DNA of 64,000 bases, taken from an uncultured Pelagibacteraceae bacterium. GTDB taxonomy: Bacteria > Pseudomonadota > Alphaproteobacteria > Pelagibacterales > Pelagibacteraceae. Both the position numbers and the translations under genes were made by a program. Positions 38,475 to 46,300 of this stretch are shown in pieces. The stretch's first letter is position 1, and every line of letters starts with the position of its first letter. The stretch spans positions 1-64,000 of the forward strand of contig CACJZT010000002.1 of the NCBI GenBank assembly GCA_902598015.1, read 5' to 3'. A model generated the notes under the pieces. The model was not told where the DNA came from and searched no databases. It saw only the letters and a list, made by a program, of their open reading frames with translations.

Positions 38475-41345
38475 CTATGCTGCGTCTTCTTTAAACTCAT
38501 CCATACTTGGACATGTGCAGAATATATTTTTATCTCCATAAACATTGTCTACTCGAGCAACTGGAGGCCAAAATTTATTTTGTTTTAGAAAACTTGCAGG
38601 ATATGCTGCTTCTTGTCTTGAATATTTATGTTCCCATACATCTGATGATAATTCTGTATCAGTGTGAGGAGCATTTTTAATTGGATTATCAATTTTATCA
38701 AATTCACCTGATTTAATTTTTTCAATTTCTTGTTTAATCTTAATTAAAGTGTCACAAAATCTGTCTATTTCTGACAAGCCTTCACTTTCAGTTGGCTCTA
38801 TCATCATAGTGCCAGCAACAGGCCATGACATAGTTGGTGCGTGAAATCCAAAATCTATCATTCTTTTAGCAATATCTTCTTCTGTTACCCCTGTTTCAGA
38901 TTTAATATTTCTAATATCAATTATGCACTCATGTGCAACATTGCCATTTGCACCTTTGTACAAAATCGGAAAGTGATCTTTTAGTCTGTGGGCAATATAA
39001 TTTGCGTTTAAAATTGCAACTTGAGTAGCAAGCTTTAATCCTGCTGACCCCATCATTTTAATATACATCCAAGAGATTGATAGAATACTTGAGCTGCCCC
39101 AAGGAGCTGCTGATACTGCTCCAATTCCACTTGTTGGTCCACAATCTTTTATTACTGGATGATTAGGCAGATAAACTTGTAAATGTTTTTTACAAGCTAT
39201 AGGTCCCATTCCAGGTCCGCCACCACCGTGAGGAATACAAAATGTTTTATGCAGATTAATATGACAAACATCTGGACCAAAATTTCCAGGCTTTGCAACT
39301 CCAACAAGGGCATTTAAATTTGCTCCATCCATATAGACCTGTCCACCATGTTTATGAACTAACTCACAAATATCAGTTATTTTTTCCTCAAATACTCCAT
39401 GGGTAGATGGGTAAGTTACCATTAAAGCTGCAAGATTTTCTGAATGTTGCTCTACTTTTTTCTTTAAATCATCGAAATCTACATTTCCCTCTTTATCACA
39501 ATTAACAACAACGACTTTCATTCCAACCATTTGTGCGCTTGCTGGATTTGTACCATGTGCCGAACTTGGGATTAAACATATATTACGATGAGCATCATCT
39601 CTATCTAAGTGGTACTTTCTTATAACCATTAGACCTGCATATTCTCCTTGAGCGCCTGCATTAGGTTGTAGAGAAACACCGGAAAAACCTGTTATAGATC
39701 TTAACCAATTTTTTAAATCAGTAAACAAATCTCTAAAACCTTCCATTTGTTCAACTGGAACAAAAGGATGAGGTTCTGCAAATTCTTTCCAAGAAATCGG
39801 GATCATTTCAGCGGCAGCATTTAACTTCATTGTGCACGAACCAAGTGCTATCATAGTTCTATTTAATGCTATATCCTTATCCTCTAGCTTTTTAAGATAT
39901 CTAAGCATTTCAGTTTCTGAATGATATAAGTTAAAAATTGGATGCTCTAAATATTTTGAAGTTCTTAATAAATTTTTTGGTAAATTAGGTAATTTAACTG
40001 AAGGATCCTCTTTTTTTATTGATTCTGCAGCATTAAAAATTTTTAATAATTGATTTACTCTATAAACGTTTTTTCTTTCATCGAAAGAGACAGAAAGCAT
40101 TTCAGAATTTACTTTTCGTATATTAACTTTCTGATTTAGAGCATTTTTATAAATTTGATCAGTCTTTTCTTTGGTAATAATTGTAACAGTATCAAAAAAA
40201 TAATCAGAATAAATTTCATAACCTGACTGTTTTATTTTATCAGCAAAACTTTTTGCTAATTGAGAAACTCTTTCAGAAATATTTTTAATTCCATCTGGGC
40301 CATGATAAATAGCATATGCTGCTGAAACAATTGCTAATAAAGCTTGTGCAGTACAAATATTGCTTGTCGCCTTATCTCTTCTGATGTGTTGCTCTCTAGT
40401 CTGTAAAGATAATCTATATGCCTTGTTACCATGTCTATCAACCGACACACCAACAATTCTACCAGGCATCGATCTTTTATACTCGTCTTTAGTTGCAAAA
40501 AATGCTGCATGTGGACCTCCATACCCCATTGGTATTCCAAATCGCTGAGAGCTCCCAACAGCTATATCAGCACCAAGTTCTCTTGGTGTTTTTAATTTTG
40601 CTAATGCTAATAAATCACAAGCTAATACAGCCTTACCGTTTTTTTTATGAATTTTGCTAATTGCTTCACTAGGATCTTTAATATCTCCTAAAGTTCCAGG
40701 ATATTGTAAAATTCCACAAACTAAATTCTCTTTTAATTGATCTAAAACTTCATCTTCTTTTCCAACTAAAACTTTTAAACCCATTGGTTCGGCTCTAGTT
40801 TGAATTACATTTATTGTTTGAGGATGGCAATCCTCAGACACAAAAACTAAATTACTATCTTTTTTATTTAATCTATGACTAAGACCCATGGCTTCTGCTG
40901 CTGCTGTGCCTTCATCCAATAAAGAAGCATTAGCGATATCCATTCCAGTAAAATCAACAATCATTTGTTGAAAGTTTAATAACATCTCAAGTCTTCCTTG
41001 AGCTACTTCAGGCTGATAAGGTGTATATGATGTATACCAACCTGGATTTTCTAAAATATTTCTTAAAATTACATATGGCGTATATGTTCCATAATAACCC
41101 ATTCCAATAAAATTTGAGTAAACATGATTTTTTTTTGAAATTGCTCTTAATTTTCTTAACGCCTCATATTCCGAATTAGATTCTCCGATATTAAGCTCAC
41201 CTTTAAACATTATTTTTTCTGGAACAGTGTTATTCATTAAATCATCTATTGATTGATAATTTAATTCTTTTAACATTTTTGATTGGTCTTCTTTAGAAGG
41301 TCCAATGTGTCTTTTTATAAAATCTTTTTCTGAATTTGGTAACAT
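38475..41345 (-). CDS. gcvP: Glycine dehydrogenase (decarboxylating), P protein
   Basis: PLP-dependent decarboxylation of glycine, passing the aminomethyl group to lipoyl-GcvH. 956 residues: a single fused chain, unlike the split GcvPA/GcvPB form. N-terminal FIKRHIGPS, PLP-lysine motif HINLHKTFCIPHGGGGPG near residue 700. TAATG overlap with gcvH, then gcvT upstream. Under the glycine riboswitch at 42841-42978. Together with gcvL elsewhere it yields CO2, NH3 and methylene-THF. Confidence 0.97.
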   Translation of the reverse strand: MLPNSEKDFIKRHIGPSKEDQSKMLKELNYQSIDDLMNNTVPEKIMFKGELNIGESNSEYEALRKLRAISKKNHVYSNFIGMGYYGTYTPYVILRNILENPGWYTSYTPYQPEVAQGRLEMLLNFQQMIVDFTGMDIANASLLDEGTAAAEAMGLSHRLNKKDSNLVFVSEDCHPQTINVIQTRAEPMGLKVLVGKEDEVLDQLKENLVCGILQYPGTLGDIKDPSEAISKIHKKNGKAVLACDLLALAKLKTPRELGADIAVGSSQRFGIPMGYGGPHAAFFATKDEYKRSMPGRIVGVSVDRHGNKAYRLSLQTREQHIRRDKATSNICTAQALLAIVSAAYAIYHGPDGIKNISERVSQLAKSFADKIKQSGYEIYSDYFFDTVTIITKEKTDQIYKNALNQKVNIRKVNSEMLSVSFDERKNVYRVNQLLKIFNAAESIKKEDPSVKLPNLPKNLLRTSKYLEHPIFNLYHSETEMLRYLKKLEDKDIALNRTMIALGSCTMKLNAAAEMIPISWKEFAEPHPFVPVEQMEGFRDLFTDLKNWLRSITGFSGVSLQPNAGAQGEYAGLMVIRKYHLDRDDAHRNICLIPSSAHGTNPASAQMVGMKVVVVNCDKEGNVDFDDLKKKVEQHSENLAALMVTYPSTHGVFEEKITDICELVHKHGGQVYMDGANLNALVGVAKPGNFGPDVCHINLHKTFCIPHGGGGPGMGPIACKKHLQVYLPNHPVIKDCGPTSGIGAVSAAPWGSSSILSISWMYIKMMGSAGLKLATQVAILNANYIAHRLKDHFPILYKGANGNVAHECIIDIRNIKSETGVTEEDIAKRMIDFGFHAPTMSWPVAGTMMIEPTESEGLSEIDRFCDTLIKIKQEIEKIKSGEFDKIDNPIKNAPHTDTELSSDVWEHKYSRQEAAYPASFLKQNKFWPPVARVDNVYGDKNIFCTCPSMDEFKEDAA

Positions 41346-41725
41346 TATGCTGATGTCTCCTTTGCAAATTTTTCATATTCTTCTTTACTCATAAGACTAT
41401 CCATTTCAGATTTGTCTTTTATTTTAAGTTTAAAAAACCATGCAGACTCTTCTGGGTCTTCATTTATTTTTGATGGATCATCAACTATCATTTGATTTGT
41501 ATCTATAACTTCTCCACTAACAGGAGTGTAAACATCACTAGCAGCTTTCGTTGACTCAACCACTCCAGCAGTTCCATCTTTATCGACATTTGAACCTTTC
41601 TCTGGGAGTTCAGCAAATACTATATCCCCAAGCATTTCTGTTGCATGCTTGGTTATTCCAATTGTAGCTTCTTCTCCATCTAGTTTAATCCACTCATGTT
41701 CTTTTGAATATTTAACTTCAGACAT
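41345..41725 (-). CDS. gcvH: Glycine cleavage system H protein
   Basis: Lipoylated shuttle that carries the aminomethyl intermediate between P, T and L proteins. 126 residues. Lipoyl-lysine is Lys60 in [10 protein letters not shown]-terminal YSKEHEWIK is typical. Overlaps gcvT by 8 bases and gcvP by 1 base, so the three are probably co-translated. Confidence 0.97.
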
Positions 41726-42824
41726 TAATTTCCCCTTTTACGTAATTTTTTTTATAAAACGGTAAGTTACAAATATTTGCGGGAATTTTTTTTCCTCTAA
41801 CTTCAAGAAATATTTTTGTATTTACAGTTGAATAACTATTATCGACATATCCCATTGCTATTGGATGTTCAACGCTTGGTCCAAATGTGCCACTTGTTAC
41901 TTTCCCAATTTCTTGATTTTTATCATTGTAAATTTTGGTATTTCCTCTAGCAATTACTTTGCTGTCTGGTTTTATGCCAACTCTCAATTTTTTTACTCCG
42001 CTTTGAAATTGGTTTTTTAAAACTTCTGATCCAACAAATTCAGTCTCAATTCTGCTCTTAGGTATAGCCCATTTTAGATTAGCTTCGATAGGACTTGTAT
42101 CGTTGTCTAAATCATTTCCATACAAGCAGAGTCCAGCTTCCATTCTTAATGTATCTCTTGCTCCTAAACCAATCAATTTAGATCCATTTTCTATCAAACT
42201 TTCTACAAAAGTTTCAGCATCACTATTTTTTATAGAAATTTCAAATCCATCCTCACCAGTATATCCTGATCTAGTTATGTATACTTTTTCATTTTTATAG
42301 ACATGGTTGTTTCCATTCATAAATTTTAGACTGTCACAACCAGGTATAACTTTATTTAAAACATTTTTTGCTTCAGGGCCCTGCAATGCAATTAATGACA
42401 ATGACTCGTCAAGATTTAATTTATATTGATTATCAAGTTTAGATTTTATTACTTCATAATCATTATACTTGCATGCAGCATTCAAGATAATTAAAAATCC
42501 ATCAGATGTTTTGGTAATTATCAGATCGTCCTGAATTCCTCCTTTGTTATTCATTAAAAATGAATACTTACTTTGATTAGTTTTCAATTTTTTCAAATCC
42601 GCAGGAAAAATCTTTTCAAGATCATTTGTAAGATCATCACCACCCGATATAAATAATTGACCCATATGAGAAACATCAAAAATACCAGAGTGTGAACGTG
42701 TGTATTTATGCTCTTGTATAATTCCATCTTTATATTGGATGGGCATTTGATATCCAGCAAACTCTACAAGCTTTGCGCCGTACTTAATGTGGAGATTATT
42801 TAACGATGTTTTTTTTATATTCAT
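41718..42824 (-). CDS. gcvT: Aminomethyltransferase, glycine cleavage T protein
   Basis: Moves the C1 unit from aminomethyl-GcvH to tetrahydrofolate, releasing ammonia. 368 residues. N-terminal [13 protein letters not shown] and [11 protein letters not shown] are the family hallmarks; [11 protein letters not shown] lies mid-protein. First gene of gcvTHP, with no strong Shine-Dalgarno: AGAG at 42833-42830 is the nearest. Its start codon lies in a 12-base segment complementary to the riboswitch linker (see the separate entry), which suggests translational control. Confidence 0.97.
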
Positions 42825-42908
42825 ATTAACTCTATATGCCCCCTCTGTCTTTTTGCCTGAGAGATTTGCTCCTTCGGCGAGAATTATTCTCTTTCCAGAG
42901 TTAATATG
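42822..42908 (-). promoter_or_regulatory. Predicted anti-start helix of the gcvT riboswitch
   Basis: CATATTAACTCT (minus strand 42908-42897) and AGAGTTAATATG (42833-42822) are perfect reverse complements. The second contains the AGAG element and the ATG of gcvT. The first spans the linker between the aptamers plus CTCT of the aptamer-2 P1 stem. Pairing would hide the start codon and is incompatible with P1, which uses the same CTCT with CAGAG at 42847-42843. Pairing is seen; regulation is inferred. Confidence 0.6.
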
Positions 42909-42978
42909 TACGGTCCATTTGCCTGAGAGTTTCCGGGGTGGTTGCTCCTTCGGCGCTACAAAAGTAGTCTCTCCCGTA
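42841..42978 (-). promoter_or_regulatory. Tandem glycine riboswitch (two aptamers)
   Basis: Two glycine aptamers read on the minus strand. Each has the conserved core GCCGAAGGAGCAA (42954-42942 and 42878-42866) and CTCTCAGGC (42929-42921 and 42863-42855). Aptamer 1 is closed by P1 TACGG/CCGTA (42978-42974 with 42913-42909). Aptamer 2 is closed by CTCTG/CAGAG (42900-42896 with 42847-42843). They are joined by 8 bases. It controls gcvTHP; the class is known to activate glycine cleavage when glycine is plentiful. No intrinsic terminator is seen, so control is probably translational. Confidence 0.93.
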
Positions 42979-42984
42979 TAAATT

Positions 42985-42993
42985 CTTATAACA
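42985..42993 (-). promoter_or_regulatory. Extended -10 promoter of the gcvTHP riboswitch transcript
   Basis: On the minus strand TGTTATAAG (42993-42985) resembles an extended -10 (TGnTATAAT, one mismatch). No good -35 is seen. The predicted start, around 42978, coincides with the first base pair of aptamer 1, so the transcript would begin directly with the riboswitch. Confidence 0.5.
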
Positions 42994-43015: not shown

Positions 43016-43888
43016 CTAATTTGTTGCACTTTTTTTTTTCATAAGTGAAAGAAATTGTATTAAAACTGCAAATATTACTATTAAACCACCAATTAAAACG
43101 CTGGTTGGAGGATTTTCATTTATAAACATCCACGCCCAAAAAGGTCCTAAAACTGCCTCTGATAACATTATGATTCCAACTAAGGCTGAAGGTGTAGATC
43201 TTGCACCGATTGTAATAAAAATAAAACCAAAACCAAGTTGGAAAAAACCAGCTAAAAATCCCAAAAAAATGTCATTTAAAGATATAAAGATCGTTTTAGA
43301 CATAAAATATCCAATGATCAAAGCAATAACACCTGCAATAAATTGTAATGGAACCATATCTACACTTGGAAATTTTCTAACTATTAAAATTAATGTTGCG
43401 AATGATATTGGCATAATAAAAGCAGCAATATTTCCACTCATTTGTCCAATTGTTAATGAGCTTCCAACCATCAAAATTATTCCTGAAATTGCTAAAACTA
43501 TAGAAGTTAATGTTATTAAGTTTATTTTTTCTTTTAAAAATATATATCCAAAGATTGCTAAAAATAATGTTTGGGTTTGAATTATAAAATTAGTATTTGC
43601 TACAGTAGTATTATACATCGCAAAAACATAACTACTAAAGCCACAGGCAAGTATAATGCCTCCAATAAGACCAGGGATTCCAGATTTATTAAATGCCGAA
43701 ATAAAATTTTGCTTATAACTAATAATTAGAAAGATCAGAACTACAATTATAAAAAAAACTGATCTCCAAAATAGAATCTGCCATAGAGTGGAGCCTTCGA
43801 AAGATTTGACTATCAACCCTCCAAAACTTAAACTGAAAGCACCAAAAAAAATCAAAAGCGGTCCTGGTAATTTTGTAATTAAATTCAT
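43016..43888 (-). CDS. DMT/EamA family transporter
   Basis: 290-residue transporter with ten predicted helices in two EamA repeats (FGYIFLKEKINL closes repeat one; a second AxxxSEAVLGPFWAW pattern is near residue 250). It overlaps the pxpC stop by 4 bases (ATGA), so it is co-translated with the 5-oxoprolinase genes. A role in moving 5-oxoproline, glutamate or a related compound is an attractive but unproven guess. The gcv promoter lies immediately downstream of its stop. Confidence 0.82.
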   Translation of the reverse strand: MNLITKLPGPLLIFFGAFSLSFGGLIVKSFEGSTLWQILFWRSVFFIIVVLIFLIISYKQNFISAFNKSGIPGLIGGIILACGFSSYVFAMYNTTVANTNFIIQTQTLFLAIFGYIFLKEKINLITLTSIVLAISGIILMVGSSLTIGQMSGNIAAFIMPISFATLILIVRKFPSVDMVPLQFIAGVIALIIGYFMSKTIFISLNDIFLGFLAGFFQLGFGFIFITIGARSTPSALVGIIMLSEAVLGPFWAWMFINENPPTSVLIGGLIVIFAVLIQFLSLMKKKSATN

Positions 43889-44841
43889 TTAATTTGAGAA
43901 ATAATATTATTAGTCTCCATCTGATAAAGTTTATATAATGTTTCAGCATCCTCTAAACTTACATCTTTAAATTTAATATTAGATCCTGGTGTTAATTGTA
44001 CCAGTCGATCATAGTCAGCAGATATGACGGTTGCAATCTTTGGATATCCACCAATAGTCCCATGATCTGATAACATAATTATTGGATCTCCAGCAGATGT
44101 TATTTGAATTACACCTTTTACCAAACCTTCAGATTTTATATTAGGATCAACGATATTTTCAATTTTTGGACCTTCTAATCTCATACCCATCCTGTCTGAA
44201 AGTTTTGTAATTTTAAAACTTTCTTTAAAGAATTTATTTTGTGAAGACTCAGAAAAATAATCATAGTTTGTGCCTTTAATGACCCTTATATTTTCAATAG
44301 TGCTACCTAAGTAATCAAGTTTTCTTTTGTTAAAAGAATTATTAATATCAATTATTTCAATTTCTAAATCTTTAGAAAATTTATTCCCGTTATTTGGTCC
44401 AATTTGAGCTTGTGTATTTATTGAACAGCTTCCCCAATAATAATCAACACCAAAAGTTCCATTAATCGAAAAATATCCATAAACAGACTTGTTGGTTGAA
44501 TGAATATCGACTTCATCACCATTTTTTAACAAATAACATTGGTAGGAATTACCATCAATAACACCTTCTTTTGTTATAATTTTAAATGATACATTTCCAG
44601 AAATACAAAAAAAAATATCTTTTCCGAAATACTTCAAATGTGGGCCTTGATAAGCAAATTCTATTACCGGTGAATTGTAATCATTTTGTAGAAGTGAGTT
44701 TAACAATTGAAAATTTCTTTTATCCATCGCTCCACTAAAAGGAATACCAATATGGTATAAATTATTTCTTCCTAAGTCTTGATATGTGGTGTTGATACCA
44801 GCTCTTAAAATTTTAAAGTAGTTTCTATCTTTTGATTTCAT
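43885..44841 (-). CDS. pxpC: 5-oxoprolinase subunit C (biotin-dependent carboxyltransferase-like)
   Basis: Part of the ATP-dependent 5-oxoprolinase PxpABC that opens 5-oxoproline (pyroglutamate) to glutamate. 318 residues with the AHS2/KipA-type pattern: GINTTYQDLGRNNLYHIG near residue 14, SGAMDKRNF and a terminal SADYDRLVQLTPGS. Older annotations call these allophanate-hydrolase or urea-amidolyase-like. The 17-base overlap with pxpB and the nearby pxpA make the oxoprolinase assignment firm. 5-Oxoproline arises from glutathione and glutamine breakdown, in line with gshAB in this window. Confidence 0.9.
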   Translation of the reverse strand: MKSKDRNYFKILRAGINTTYQDLGRNNLYHIGIPFSGAMDKRNFQLLNSLLQNDYNSPVIEFAYQGPHLKYFGKDIFFCISGNVSFKIITKEGVIDGNSYQCYLLKNGDEVDIHSTNKSVYGYFSINGTFGVDYYWGSCSINTQAQIGPNNGNKFSKDLEIEIIDINNSFNKRKLDYLGSTIENIRVIKGTNYDYFSESSQNKFFKESFKITKLSDRMGMRLEGPKIENIVDPNIKSEGLVKGVIQITSAGDPIIMLSDHGTIGGYPKIATVISADYDRLVQLTPGSNIKFKDVSLEDAETLYKLYQMETNNIISQIK

Positions 44842-45499
44842 TATATTGATCTAAAGTTATTCTATAAAATTTTATTGTATCTCCTGGATTAACAAGATTA
44901 GGGCTTGATTGATTAGATGTGTCGAAAATATTTTGTGGTGTATTTCCCAAAATATTCCATCCCCCAGGTGTTTCAAAAGTATATATGTTGCAAAATTGTT
45001 CCGTTATTCCAACTGAACCTTTTGGAACTTTAACTCTTGGTGTTTCTAATCTTTTTAATCTCATATCCTTTTCAAGATCACCGAGAAAAGGCATGCCAGC
45101 CACAAAACCTGTCATATAACAAAAGTAATTTTTGCTAAAAAATTTTTCTAGGATTATTTCTGATTTTAATTTTAATTTATTTTCAACTCTTTTAATATCT
45201 AATGCAAAATTATTATCACAACACACAGGAATTTCGATTAAGTTTTTTTCTAATTTATTGTTTTCTTTAATCTCTATATTTTCAATTTTTTTTTTTAAAG
45301 ATAAAAAAGAATGTATATTTAAATCATATGAAATTATTAATTTATTATAAGATGGAGTTAAGTTTGTAATACCTTTTAAATTTAATTTTTTTATATGGTA
45401 AAAATATTTGATAACATTTGAATTAATTTCTTGATTTACATCACTTCCAAAATCGCAATACAAAGCTGCGTCACCAAGATTTAATATATTTTTTATCAT
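44825..45499 (-). CDS. pxpB: 5-oxoprolinase subunit B
   Basis: Second subunit of PxpABC (AHS1/KipI type), which hydrolyses ATP together with PxpC. 224 residues; motifs GFVAGMPFLGDL and TPRVKVPKGSVGI near residues 130-165 and TPGGWNILG towards the end. First gene of the pxpB-pxpC-DMT minus-strand unit. Only 27 bases separate its ATG from that of pxpA on the other strand. Confidence 0.9.
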   Translation of the reverse strand: MIKNILNLGDAALYCDFGSDVNQEINSNVIKYFYHIKKLNLKGITNLTPSYNKLIISYDLNIHSFLSLKKKIENIEIKENNKLEKNLIEIPVCCDNNFALDIKRVENKLKLKSEIILEKFFSKNYFCYMTGFVAGMPFLGDLEKDMRLKRLETPRVKVPKGSVGITEQFCNIYTFETPGGWNILGNTPQNIFDTSNQSSPNLVNPGDTIKFYRITLDQYNEIKR

Positions 45500-45526
45500 A
45501 CCATGTTATACTTATGATTTATTAGT
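45500..45526. promoter_or_regulatory. 27-base divergent region between pxpB and pxpA
   Basis: Start codons of pxpB (minus) and pxpA (plus) are 27 bases apart. TATACT at 45507-45512 is a plausible -10 for pxpA (start near 45519, leader of about 8 bases). Any -35 would lie inside pxpB, and the pxpB promoter inside pxpA or overlapping this one. Such crowding implies coordinated, mutually exclusive or near-leaderless transcription. Confidence 0.35.
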
Positions 45527-46300
45527 ATGGAAATTAATATCAATTGTGATTTGGGTGAAAAATCAAAGCATCATTCAGATGAAAATGATCCAAAATTACT
45601 GGAAATTGTCAATTCAGCTAATGTTGCTTGTGGTTATCATGCTGGTGATGAAGATAGCATGAACCAAGTTGTAAAAATTTGTAAGAAAAACGGTGTGAGC
45701 ATAGGTGCGCATCCATCATTTAATGATCCAGAAAACTTTGGACGTAAAAGACTAAATTTATCGTCAGATGAAATAAATAAATTGTTAATTGATCAGTATG
45801 AAATTTTACAAAATATAGCTGAAAAACATGGTGAAATCGTTACACATATTAAACCACATGGTGCTTTAAATAATATGGCTTGCGAGGATATTGAGCTTGC
45901 AACTATCATTGCAAAATCAATCTGCAATTTTAATAAAGATTTAATCTATTTGGTACCGACAGGTTCAAAAATGGAAGAGGCTGCAAAGAAATTTGATATG
46001 AGGATAGCATGTGAAATTTTTGCCGATAGAAATTATGAAGATAATGGAAATTTAGTGTCTAGAAAAGAGCCTCATGCACTTATTACAGATCCAGATAAAG
46101 CAAAAAGTCACGTTTTAAGCATGGTTCAGAACCAGGCCATTAATTGTCACAGCGGAAAGCAAATACCTTGTGAAATAGACTCTGTGTGCATACATGGGGA
46201 TAATGAAAGTTCACTATCTACAGCTATATCTATAAAAAATAATTTAATAGATAATGGCTTAGAGCTAAAAACACTAACTAACTTAAGGAAATTTAAATAA
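45527..46300 (+). CDS. pxpA: 5-oxoprolinase subunit A (LamB/YcsF family)
   Basis: Catalytic-ring subunit of 5-oxoprolinase, which cleaves the activated 5-oxoproline ring. 257 residues, typical. N-terminal NINCDLGEKSK and ANVACGYHAGDE (residues about 28-42) are the family signature, with HIKPHGALNN near 105. Divergent from pxpBC instead of the usual same-strand pxpABC order. TAATG overlap with the following TPR gene. Confidence 0.93.
   Translation: MEININCDLGEKSKHHSDENDPKLLEIVNSANVACGYHAGDEDSMNQVVKICKKNGVSIGAHPSFNDPENFGRKRLNLSSDEINKLLIDQYEILQNIAEKHGEIVTHIKPHGALNNMACEDIELATIIAKSICNFNKDLIYLVPTGSKMEEAAKKFDMRIACEIFADRNYEDNGNLVSRKEPHALITDPDKAKSHVLSMVQNQAINCHSGKQIPCEIDSVCIHGDNESSLSTAISIKNNLIDNGLELKTLTNLRKFK

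Follow-up and report, generated by a model that had tools for sequence, protein, structure and literature searches.

Introduction

SAR11 bacteria rank with the ocean's most abundant cells, and tandem glycine riboswitches reportedly stand before gcvT and glcB in this group (said to have been described by Tripp in 2009). These riboswitches are the system closest to the locus described here, with identical aptamers, genes and organisms, and portions of the literature at hand include their transcripts. According to the accessible text of one study, SAR11 glycine riboswitch reads begin at P1, or at most 15 nt ahead of it, and continue into gcvT, and the glcB start site lies 162 nt ahead of its start codon; its authors take extension into gcvT as a mark of glycine-replete cells (PMC5069720). 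An expression platform for the SAR11 glycine riboswitches is not described in the accessible portions of three reports (PMC2704228, PMC2211319, PMC5069720), and a helix between the inter-aptamer linker and the start region is the addition made here.

Other known switches work in related ways. The tandem glycine riboswitch of Neisseria gonorrhoeae gcvT is, in the accessible portion of its description, a translational ON switch in which aptamer-2 bases pair just upstream of the start codon in the absence of glycine (PMC13104608). A P5 pseudoknot between a C tract in aptamer 1 and a G tract after aptamer 2 is considered possible in the same partial text. The switch proposed here for SAR11 is likewise translational and ON, with aptamer-2 bases paired to the initiation region. 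However, in the gonococcal leader P3a, P3 and P1 of aptamer 2 supply the pairing bases, which meet a stretch just upstream of the start codon. In SAR11 the inter-aptamer linker and P1 supply them, there is covariation, and in 83 of 125 distinct leaders the pairing reaches over all of the start codon (compared with the accessible part of PMC13104608). The adenine riboswitch of Vibrio vulnificus add also resembles the proposal, as far as its available description goes, in that the ligand-free fold hides the Shine-Dalgarno (SD) sequence and AUG and the ligand closes P1 and releases both; unlike the SAR11 leader, it has a single purine aptamer, and its switch region is the aptamer 3′ end in place of an inter-aptamer linker (PMC5847336). 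In a SAR11 two-aptamer RNA of another ligand and fold, the partial description has the inter-aptamer linker likewise joining the structural change, but there the linker reportedly blocks the first aptamer, whereas in the glycine leader it pairs over the start codon.

A literature search whose reach excluded Tripp 2009 and Torgerson 2020 found no expression platform for SAR11 glycine riboswitches. The linker/start helix is not described in the accessible portions of PMC2258182, PMC2211319, PMC2704228, PMC6944388, PMC9481103 and PMC13273304. Its novelty is therefore relative to the literature covered, in part as partial texts, with Tripp 2009 and Torgerson 2020 outside it.

Materials and Methods

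The window (the whole stretch of DNA that was analysed, 64,000 nucleotides) belongs to a 1.16-Mb genome assembled in 25 contigs. Matches to RF00504 were found in 137 of 201 same-genus, 313 of 397 same-family, 165 of 247 order and 136 of 240 class genomes, these samples overlapping. In the family, 201 of 210 loci were parsed into linker, aptamer 2 and start, and nine unparsed loci were dropped (L059, L094, L127, L129, L131, L132, L133, L135 and L161); L275 and L276 are absent from all counts. Because some places were fetched twice among the 201 parsed loci, the 125 distinct leaders are the better base. Alignment A1 is built from 100 leaders that differ from one another in linker and start region. 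Of 49 class loci from outside the family, 36 were parsed, 35 of them with a start (an earlier parse gave 20 of 29). Folding energies exclude glycine, docking and other tertiary contacts, and pseudoknots including P5.

Results

Locus and aptamers

The regulated gene, gcvT (41718-42824, minus strand), is a 368-aa ORF with its ATG at 42824-42822 and a Pfam GCV_T match at 2e-80. It is followed by gcvH (41345-41725, minus strand, 126 aa), which overlaps it, and gcvP (38475-41345, minus strand, 956 aa), both assigned from the ORF list and Pfam. The order downstream of the riboswitch on the minus strand is thus gcvT-gcvH-gcvP, for glycine catabolism. The GcvT of the window is up to 100% identical to GcvT on Pelagibacteraceae (SAR11) contigs. 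On the other side (window 43016-46300), an EamA transporter gene stands immediately before the riboswitch, and beyond it are two minus-strand genes with carboxyltransferase domains (CT_A_B and CT_C_D) and a divergent LamB/YcsF gene.

Aptamer 1 (42914-42986, minus strand) lies within an RF00504 match at 42986-42901 (69.2 bits, above the gathering score). A leader similar in length to the transcripts in the accessible part of PMC5069720 would begin near 42986. The P1 of aptamer 1 joins TACGG (42978-42974) to CCGTA (42913-42909), and the corresponding A1 pairs (25-28/115-118) are 99.8% paired, with both-side changes in two of four. Aptamer 2 (42843-42900, minus strand) is part of a match of the whole tandem to RF03166 (glycine-GGAnGA) at 42990-42841, which scores 79.2 bits, below the gathering score of 110; the second aptamer core is visible in this match and is kept across A1. 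The P1 of aptamer 2 joins CUCUG (42900-42896) to CAGAG (42847-42843). Across the 100 leaders UCUG/CAGA is 99-100% paired, and the outermost C-G pair is present in 44. On the evidence of two conserved aptamer cores before glycine catabolism genes, the leader is identified as a tandem glycine riboswitch, as a preliminary description of this DNA had proposed, and the RF00504 and RF03166 matches ahead of gcvT-gcvH-gcvP bear this out.

In 5 of 100 distinct leaders (L072 at 463-645; L083, L089, L096 and L107, each at 1330-1512), aptamer 1 begins GGGAGAAUGG and has an altered P2 stem, the remainder being seemingly unchanged; these leaders possibly carry a variant aptamer 1. A candidate P5, after the accessible account in PMC13104608, would join CCCC in P3b of aptamer 1 (42935-42938, minus strand) to GGGG just 3′ of aptamer 2 (42839-42842, minus strand). 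In the 100 leaders 84.9% of its cells are pairable and the middle two pairs hardly vary; the end pairs fail in 25 and 29 leaders, and both-side changes occur in only six cells.

A helix over the start of gcvT

Minus-strand positions 42908-42897 read CATATTAACTCT and positions 42833-42822 read AGAGTTAATATG, which contains AGAG and, at its end, the gcvT AUG. The two are perfect reverse complements over 12 bp, so the preliminary description was exact on this point. Since aptamer-1 P1 ends at 42909 and aptamer-2 P1 starts at 42900, the entire 8-nt linker CATATTAA (42901-42908, minus strand) lies within the helix and supplies the 5′ strand of 8 of its 12 pairs. The adjoining CTCT (42897-42900, minus strand) is common to the helix and the 5′ strand of aptamer-2 P1. 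Assignment of the 3′ strand (42822-42833, minus strand) draws on complementarity, a chance test, covariation and folding.

For the chance test, positions -9 to +3 around the first ATG of the 59 window ORFs of at least 120 codons were compared with the stretch from -120 to -20. A 12-bp match was found at gcvT alone, the runner-up having 9 bp. First-order Markov simulations of the leader gave 12 bp in 0 of 20000 and at least 9 bp in 17 of 20000.

The AGAG in the helix had been described as an SD-like site. It is present there, and the 16S tail of the window genome (ACCTCCTTT) is normal, but the site is weak and its motif class is unenriched: GAG, AGG or GGA was found ahead of 10 of 60 window ORFs versus 11 of 60 in a control stretch, an approximate count, since the first ATG of each long ORF served as its start. 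A generic SD reading of AGAG is thus unsupported, and the motif may be retained mainly for pairing with CUCU.

Conservation and covariation

The helix is widespread in the Pelagibacteraceae. An unbroken helix of at least 9 bp precedes gcvT or malate synthase in 110 of 125 distinct leaders, and when mismatches are allowed 198 of the 201 loci, and 122 of the 125 distinct leaders, reach at least 9 pairs. Riboswitch relatives precede gcvT, and malate synthase was downstream in five loci scanned. Of the 125 distinct leaders, 83 have the entire start codon inside the helix and 26 have a helix that stops upstream of it, so the target is the initiation region rather than AUG as such; the earlier placement of the helix over the gcvT AUG holds in the window and in those 83 leaders, and not in the 26. 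Helix and aptamer-2 P1, which is 4-5 bp long in 124 of 125 leaders, have four bases in common in the window; among the 125 leaders the overlap is 3-4 bases in 113 and 1-2 bases in 12. In the genome at the published riboswitch coordinates of HTCC1062, inspection of the sequence found a 10-bp gcvT helix with the AUG pairs kept. This HTCC1062-like gcvT leader has lost two outer CTCT pairs, leaving a still smaller overlap with P1, and it has lost the GAG (also by sequence inspection).

The bases of the helix change while the pairing is kept. Variants across genera include CATATTAACTCT/AGAGTTAATATG, TTGTAATAACTCT/AGGGTTATTACAA, CATAATAACTCT/AGAGTTATTATG, ATTATATAACTCT/GGAGTTATATAAT and AAATAAACTCT/AGAGTTTATTT, and ahead of malate synthase CATAACACTCT/AGAGTGCTATG with one mismatch; other malate-synthase leaders (L002, L015 and L182) have the helix in different bases. 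Counted by sequence and position there are 59 helix types, two of which come from three leaders that lack the helix. The start of L191, assigned mechanically, is UUG and pairs with CAA, whereas other leaders pair AUG with CAU. The three family leaders in which no helix was found (L168, L178 and L179) are of the malate-synthase type in genus g4, L168 and L179 being assigned by Pfam and L178 by a similar N-terminus. Their tandem aptamers look intact.

In A1, helix cells are 88.1% paired (a figure lowered because malate-synthase rows and L191/L195, out of register in the helix, are counted) versus 37.6-45.8% with the partner slid by 1-3 columns. The initial part of L200 and L201 is misaligned in A1, their aptamer 1 exceeding the cut stretch. 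Both-side changes occur in 7 of 12 pairs, a number matched by 8 of 500 shuffles. Such changes occupy 62 cells versus 23.4 in shuffles, and the covariation score is 0.207 versus 0.113; neither was reached in any of 500 shuffles. Because relatedness inflates counts of this kind, a partner-swap test and a tree test were added. Partner swaps among 24 linker types, scored without CTCT, reached the observed pairing in 0 of 20000 permutations. On a tree of GcvT N-termini (84 of the 100 A1 rows, gcvT only, about 77 residues, built by a quick method), the 12 pairs require 34 changes between standard pair states, one-sided changes included. The covariation called for in the preliminary description is thus present among SAR11 leaders, as compensatory changes across genera and two genes, and the linker, which it had named as one strand, covaries with the start region. 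The start-masking helix is almost certainly a real, selected RNA structure.

In 12 same-genus genomes that lacked a riboswitch match (G004, G280, G301, G322, G054, G354, G360, G396, G428, G431, G078 and G505), the best-scoring GcvT match was only 28-31% identical. The gcvT gene itself therefore seems to be missing, and the riboswitch and gcv operon may have been lost together there, as judged from sequence similarity.

Other alphaproteobacteria

Outside the family the helix is much less frequent. An unbroken run of at least 9 was found in 2 of 35 leaders versus 110 of 125 in the family, and the pairing score averaged 5.2 versus 11.1 and exceeded 8 in 1 of 35 versus 115 of 125. The loose measure (at least 9 pairs, mismatches allowed) is reached by 8 of 35 outside leaders versus 122 of 125 family leaders and is therefore a poor test alone. 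Since the strict measures, score and unbroken run, separate the groups, the helix is typical of Pelagibacteraceae as far as sampled. Many linkers outside the family are purine-rich, of the GGGGGAUGAAA type.

A few outside leaders do pair. L264 has 14 bp between linker CGCAAGGGGATGAA and downstream TTTGTCCCTTTGTG, with no CTCT and an uncertain TTG start. L233 (GGCTCTCT/AGAGAGCC) has 8 unbroken pairs immediately upstream of its ATG, CTCT included, and 11 pairs overall. L255 (9 pairs, three of them G-U) and L256 are outside cases from one family. Related linker-based designs may therefore occur in other alphaproteobacterial families (L264, L233).

Folding predictions

In the ligand-free ensemble of 42992-42795, the helix has a mean probability of 0.994 and aptamer-2 P1 of 0.0003; the ligand-free helix is thus predicted to cover the gcvT initiation region. 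Its probability exceeds 0.8 in 110 of 125 distinct leaders. The whole-leader fold is modestly stabler than shuffles (z = -1.77).

Forcing aptamer-2 P1 in the window costs about 5.3 kcal/mol (ensemble energy from -44.4 to -39.0), and across the 125 leaders the median ligand-free cost is 5.5 kcal/mol. Only 4 of the 12 pairs are incompatible with P1, so the enforced fold frees AGAG (79-90% unpaired) and leaves the window AUG mostly paired (8-11% unpaired). The outer 8 pairs, now across a 13-nt bulge, keep a mean probability of 0.29, with alternative pairings accounting for the remainder. Accessibility rises by more than 0.5 at the AGAG site in 70 leaders and at the AUG in 21. Leaders with an AUG more than 50% unpaired number 9 of 125 in the free fold, 41 with P1 alone and 68 with P1 and the linker single-stranded; in the window this last setting leaves it 18% unpaired. 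The preliminary description had the two pairings exclude each other. With only four bases in common in the window, that picture is partly right: exclusion applies over CTCT, but P1 and the 8 linker pairs are compatible in the predicted folds.

Discussion

In this leader the helix over the start is the candidate expression platform. With good confidence we regard it as a glycine-relieved translational block on the gcvTHP mRNA, that is, an ON switch. The block of translation, the glycine trigger, the ON direction, the lock by docking and P5, and the kinetics are what we infer. When glycine is absent, the linker and the first four bases of aptamer-2 P1 would pair with the gcvT initiation region and block the ribosome. 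When glycine is present, aptamer 2 would close its own P1, reclaim CUCU and free AGAG. The 8 residual AU-rich pairs would have to open too, and the source of that opening would be something other than P1 exchange.

Transcription order would matter in this switch. P1 would be made first and the initiation strand would emerge later. Using the free linker as its toehold, that strand could nucleate there and would then invade P1 unless glycine holds it closed.

For the pairs beyond CTCT to open, either docking of the aptamers or formation of the P5 pseudoknot is probably required. A helix that fills the linker would hold the aptamers about 8 base pairs apart and so block docking; glycine-driven docking would in turn open the helix. 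P5 formation could also capture the G tract that follows P1, pairing it with the aptamer-1 C tract and so drawing away the strand ahead of the start. We tentatively suggest that the switch is gated by docking, the linker becoming single-stranded only when the aptamers dock, so that docking, more than P1 exchange, would uncover the start codon.

A plainer scheme, distinctly less likely than the glycine-relieved block, is that only CUCU against AGAG matters. The linker pairs would then act as a toehold or stabilizer, and the AUG would be paired or breathing in both states. Switching of P1 against a platform is a standard riboswitch design. In the P1-enforced fold of the window AGAG is freed and the AUG stays paired, and a helix that ends ahead of the start codon, as in 26 of 125 distinct leaders, suits this scheme as well. 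However, the part of the helix that covaries is the linker pairs, GAG-like motifs are unenriched upstream of window ORFs, and the HTCC1062-like gcvT leader lacks the GAG yet has the AUG pairs.

It is improbable that the helix is constitutive, lowering gcvT translation or protecting the mRNA and staying closed when glycine binds. The price of opening in the ligand-free model (the median of 5.5 kcal/mol) and an aptamer-2 P1 of 4-5 bp in 124 of 125 leaders point that way, but the model has no terms for ligand energy, docking or P5. The helix also takes 3-4 bases from the P1 of a conserved glycine aptamer in most leaders (113 of 125), and no alternative expression platform was seen in the leader.

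Still less credible is control of transcription, by intrinsic or Rho-dependent termination, with pairing at the start secondary. Untranslated leaders can turn into Rho targets. The glycine-replete interpretation of run-through, in the part of PMC5069720 available, is compatible with control of transcript extension too. Against this, the published SAR11 reads in that same partial text continue into gcvT (PMC5069720), and between 42650 and 43150 the single terminator-like site found lies on the plus strand and the minus strand has none, so the leader looks terminator-free on its own strand, as earlier described.

We consider it very unlikely that the long helix is itself a form of aptamer-2 P1, stabilized by glycine to turn the gene OFF: both helices enclose aptamer 2 and have CTCT in common, but the canonical P1 partner CAGA, directly after the core, is 99-100% paired, AGAG as partner would leave about 14 extra unpaired junction bases, and gcv glycine riboswitches are ON switches in the accessible text of PMC13104608. 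Chance complementarity, which the AT-rich pairing might invite, is refuted by the simulations (0 of 20000 leaders), the ORF comparison (1 of 59), the compensatory changes and the partner swaps.

For SAR11 bacteria, the riboswitch stands ahead of two central metabolic genes. With its covariation, the start-masking helix gives both genes a candidate expression platform and points to control at the level of translation. It also suggests a concrete role for the inter-aptamer linker, which bears on why glycine riboswitches carry two aptamers. If docking does gate access to the start codon, the tandem architecture would itself be the expression platform, which would explain the retention of both aptamers in streamlined genomes.
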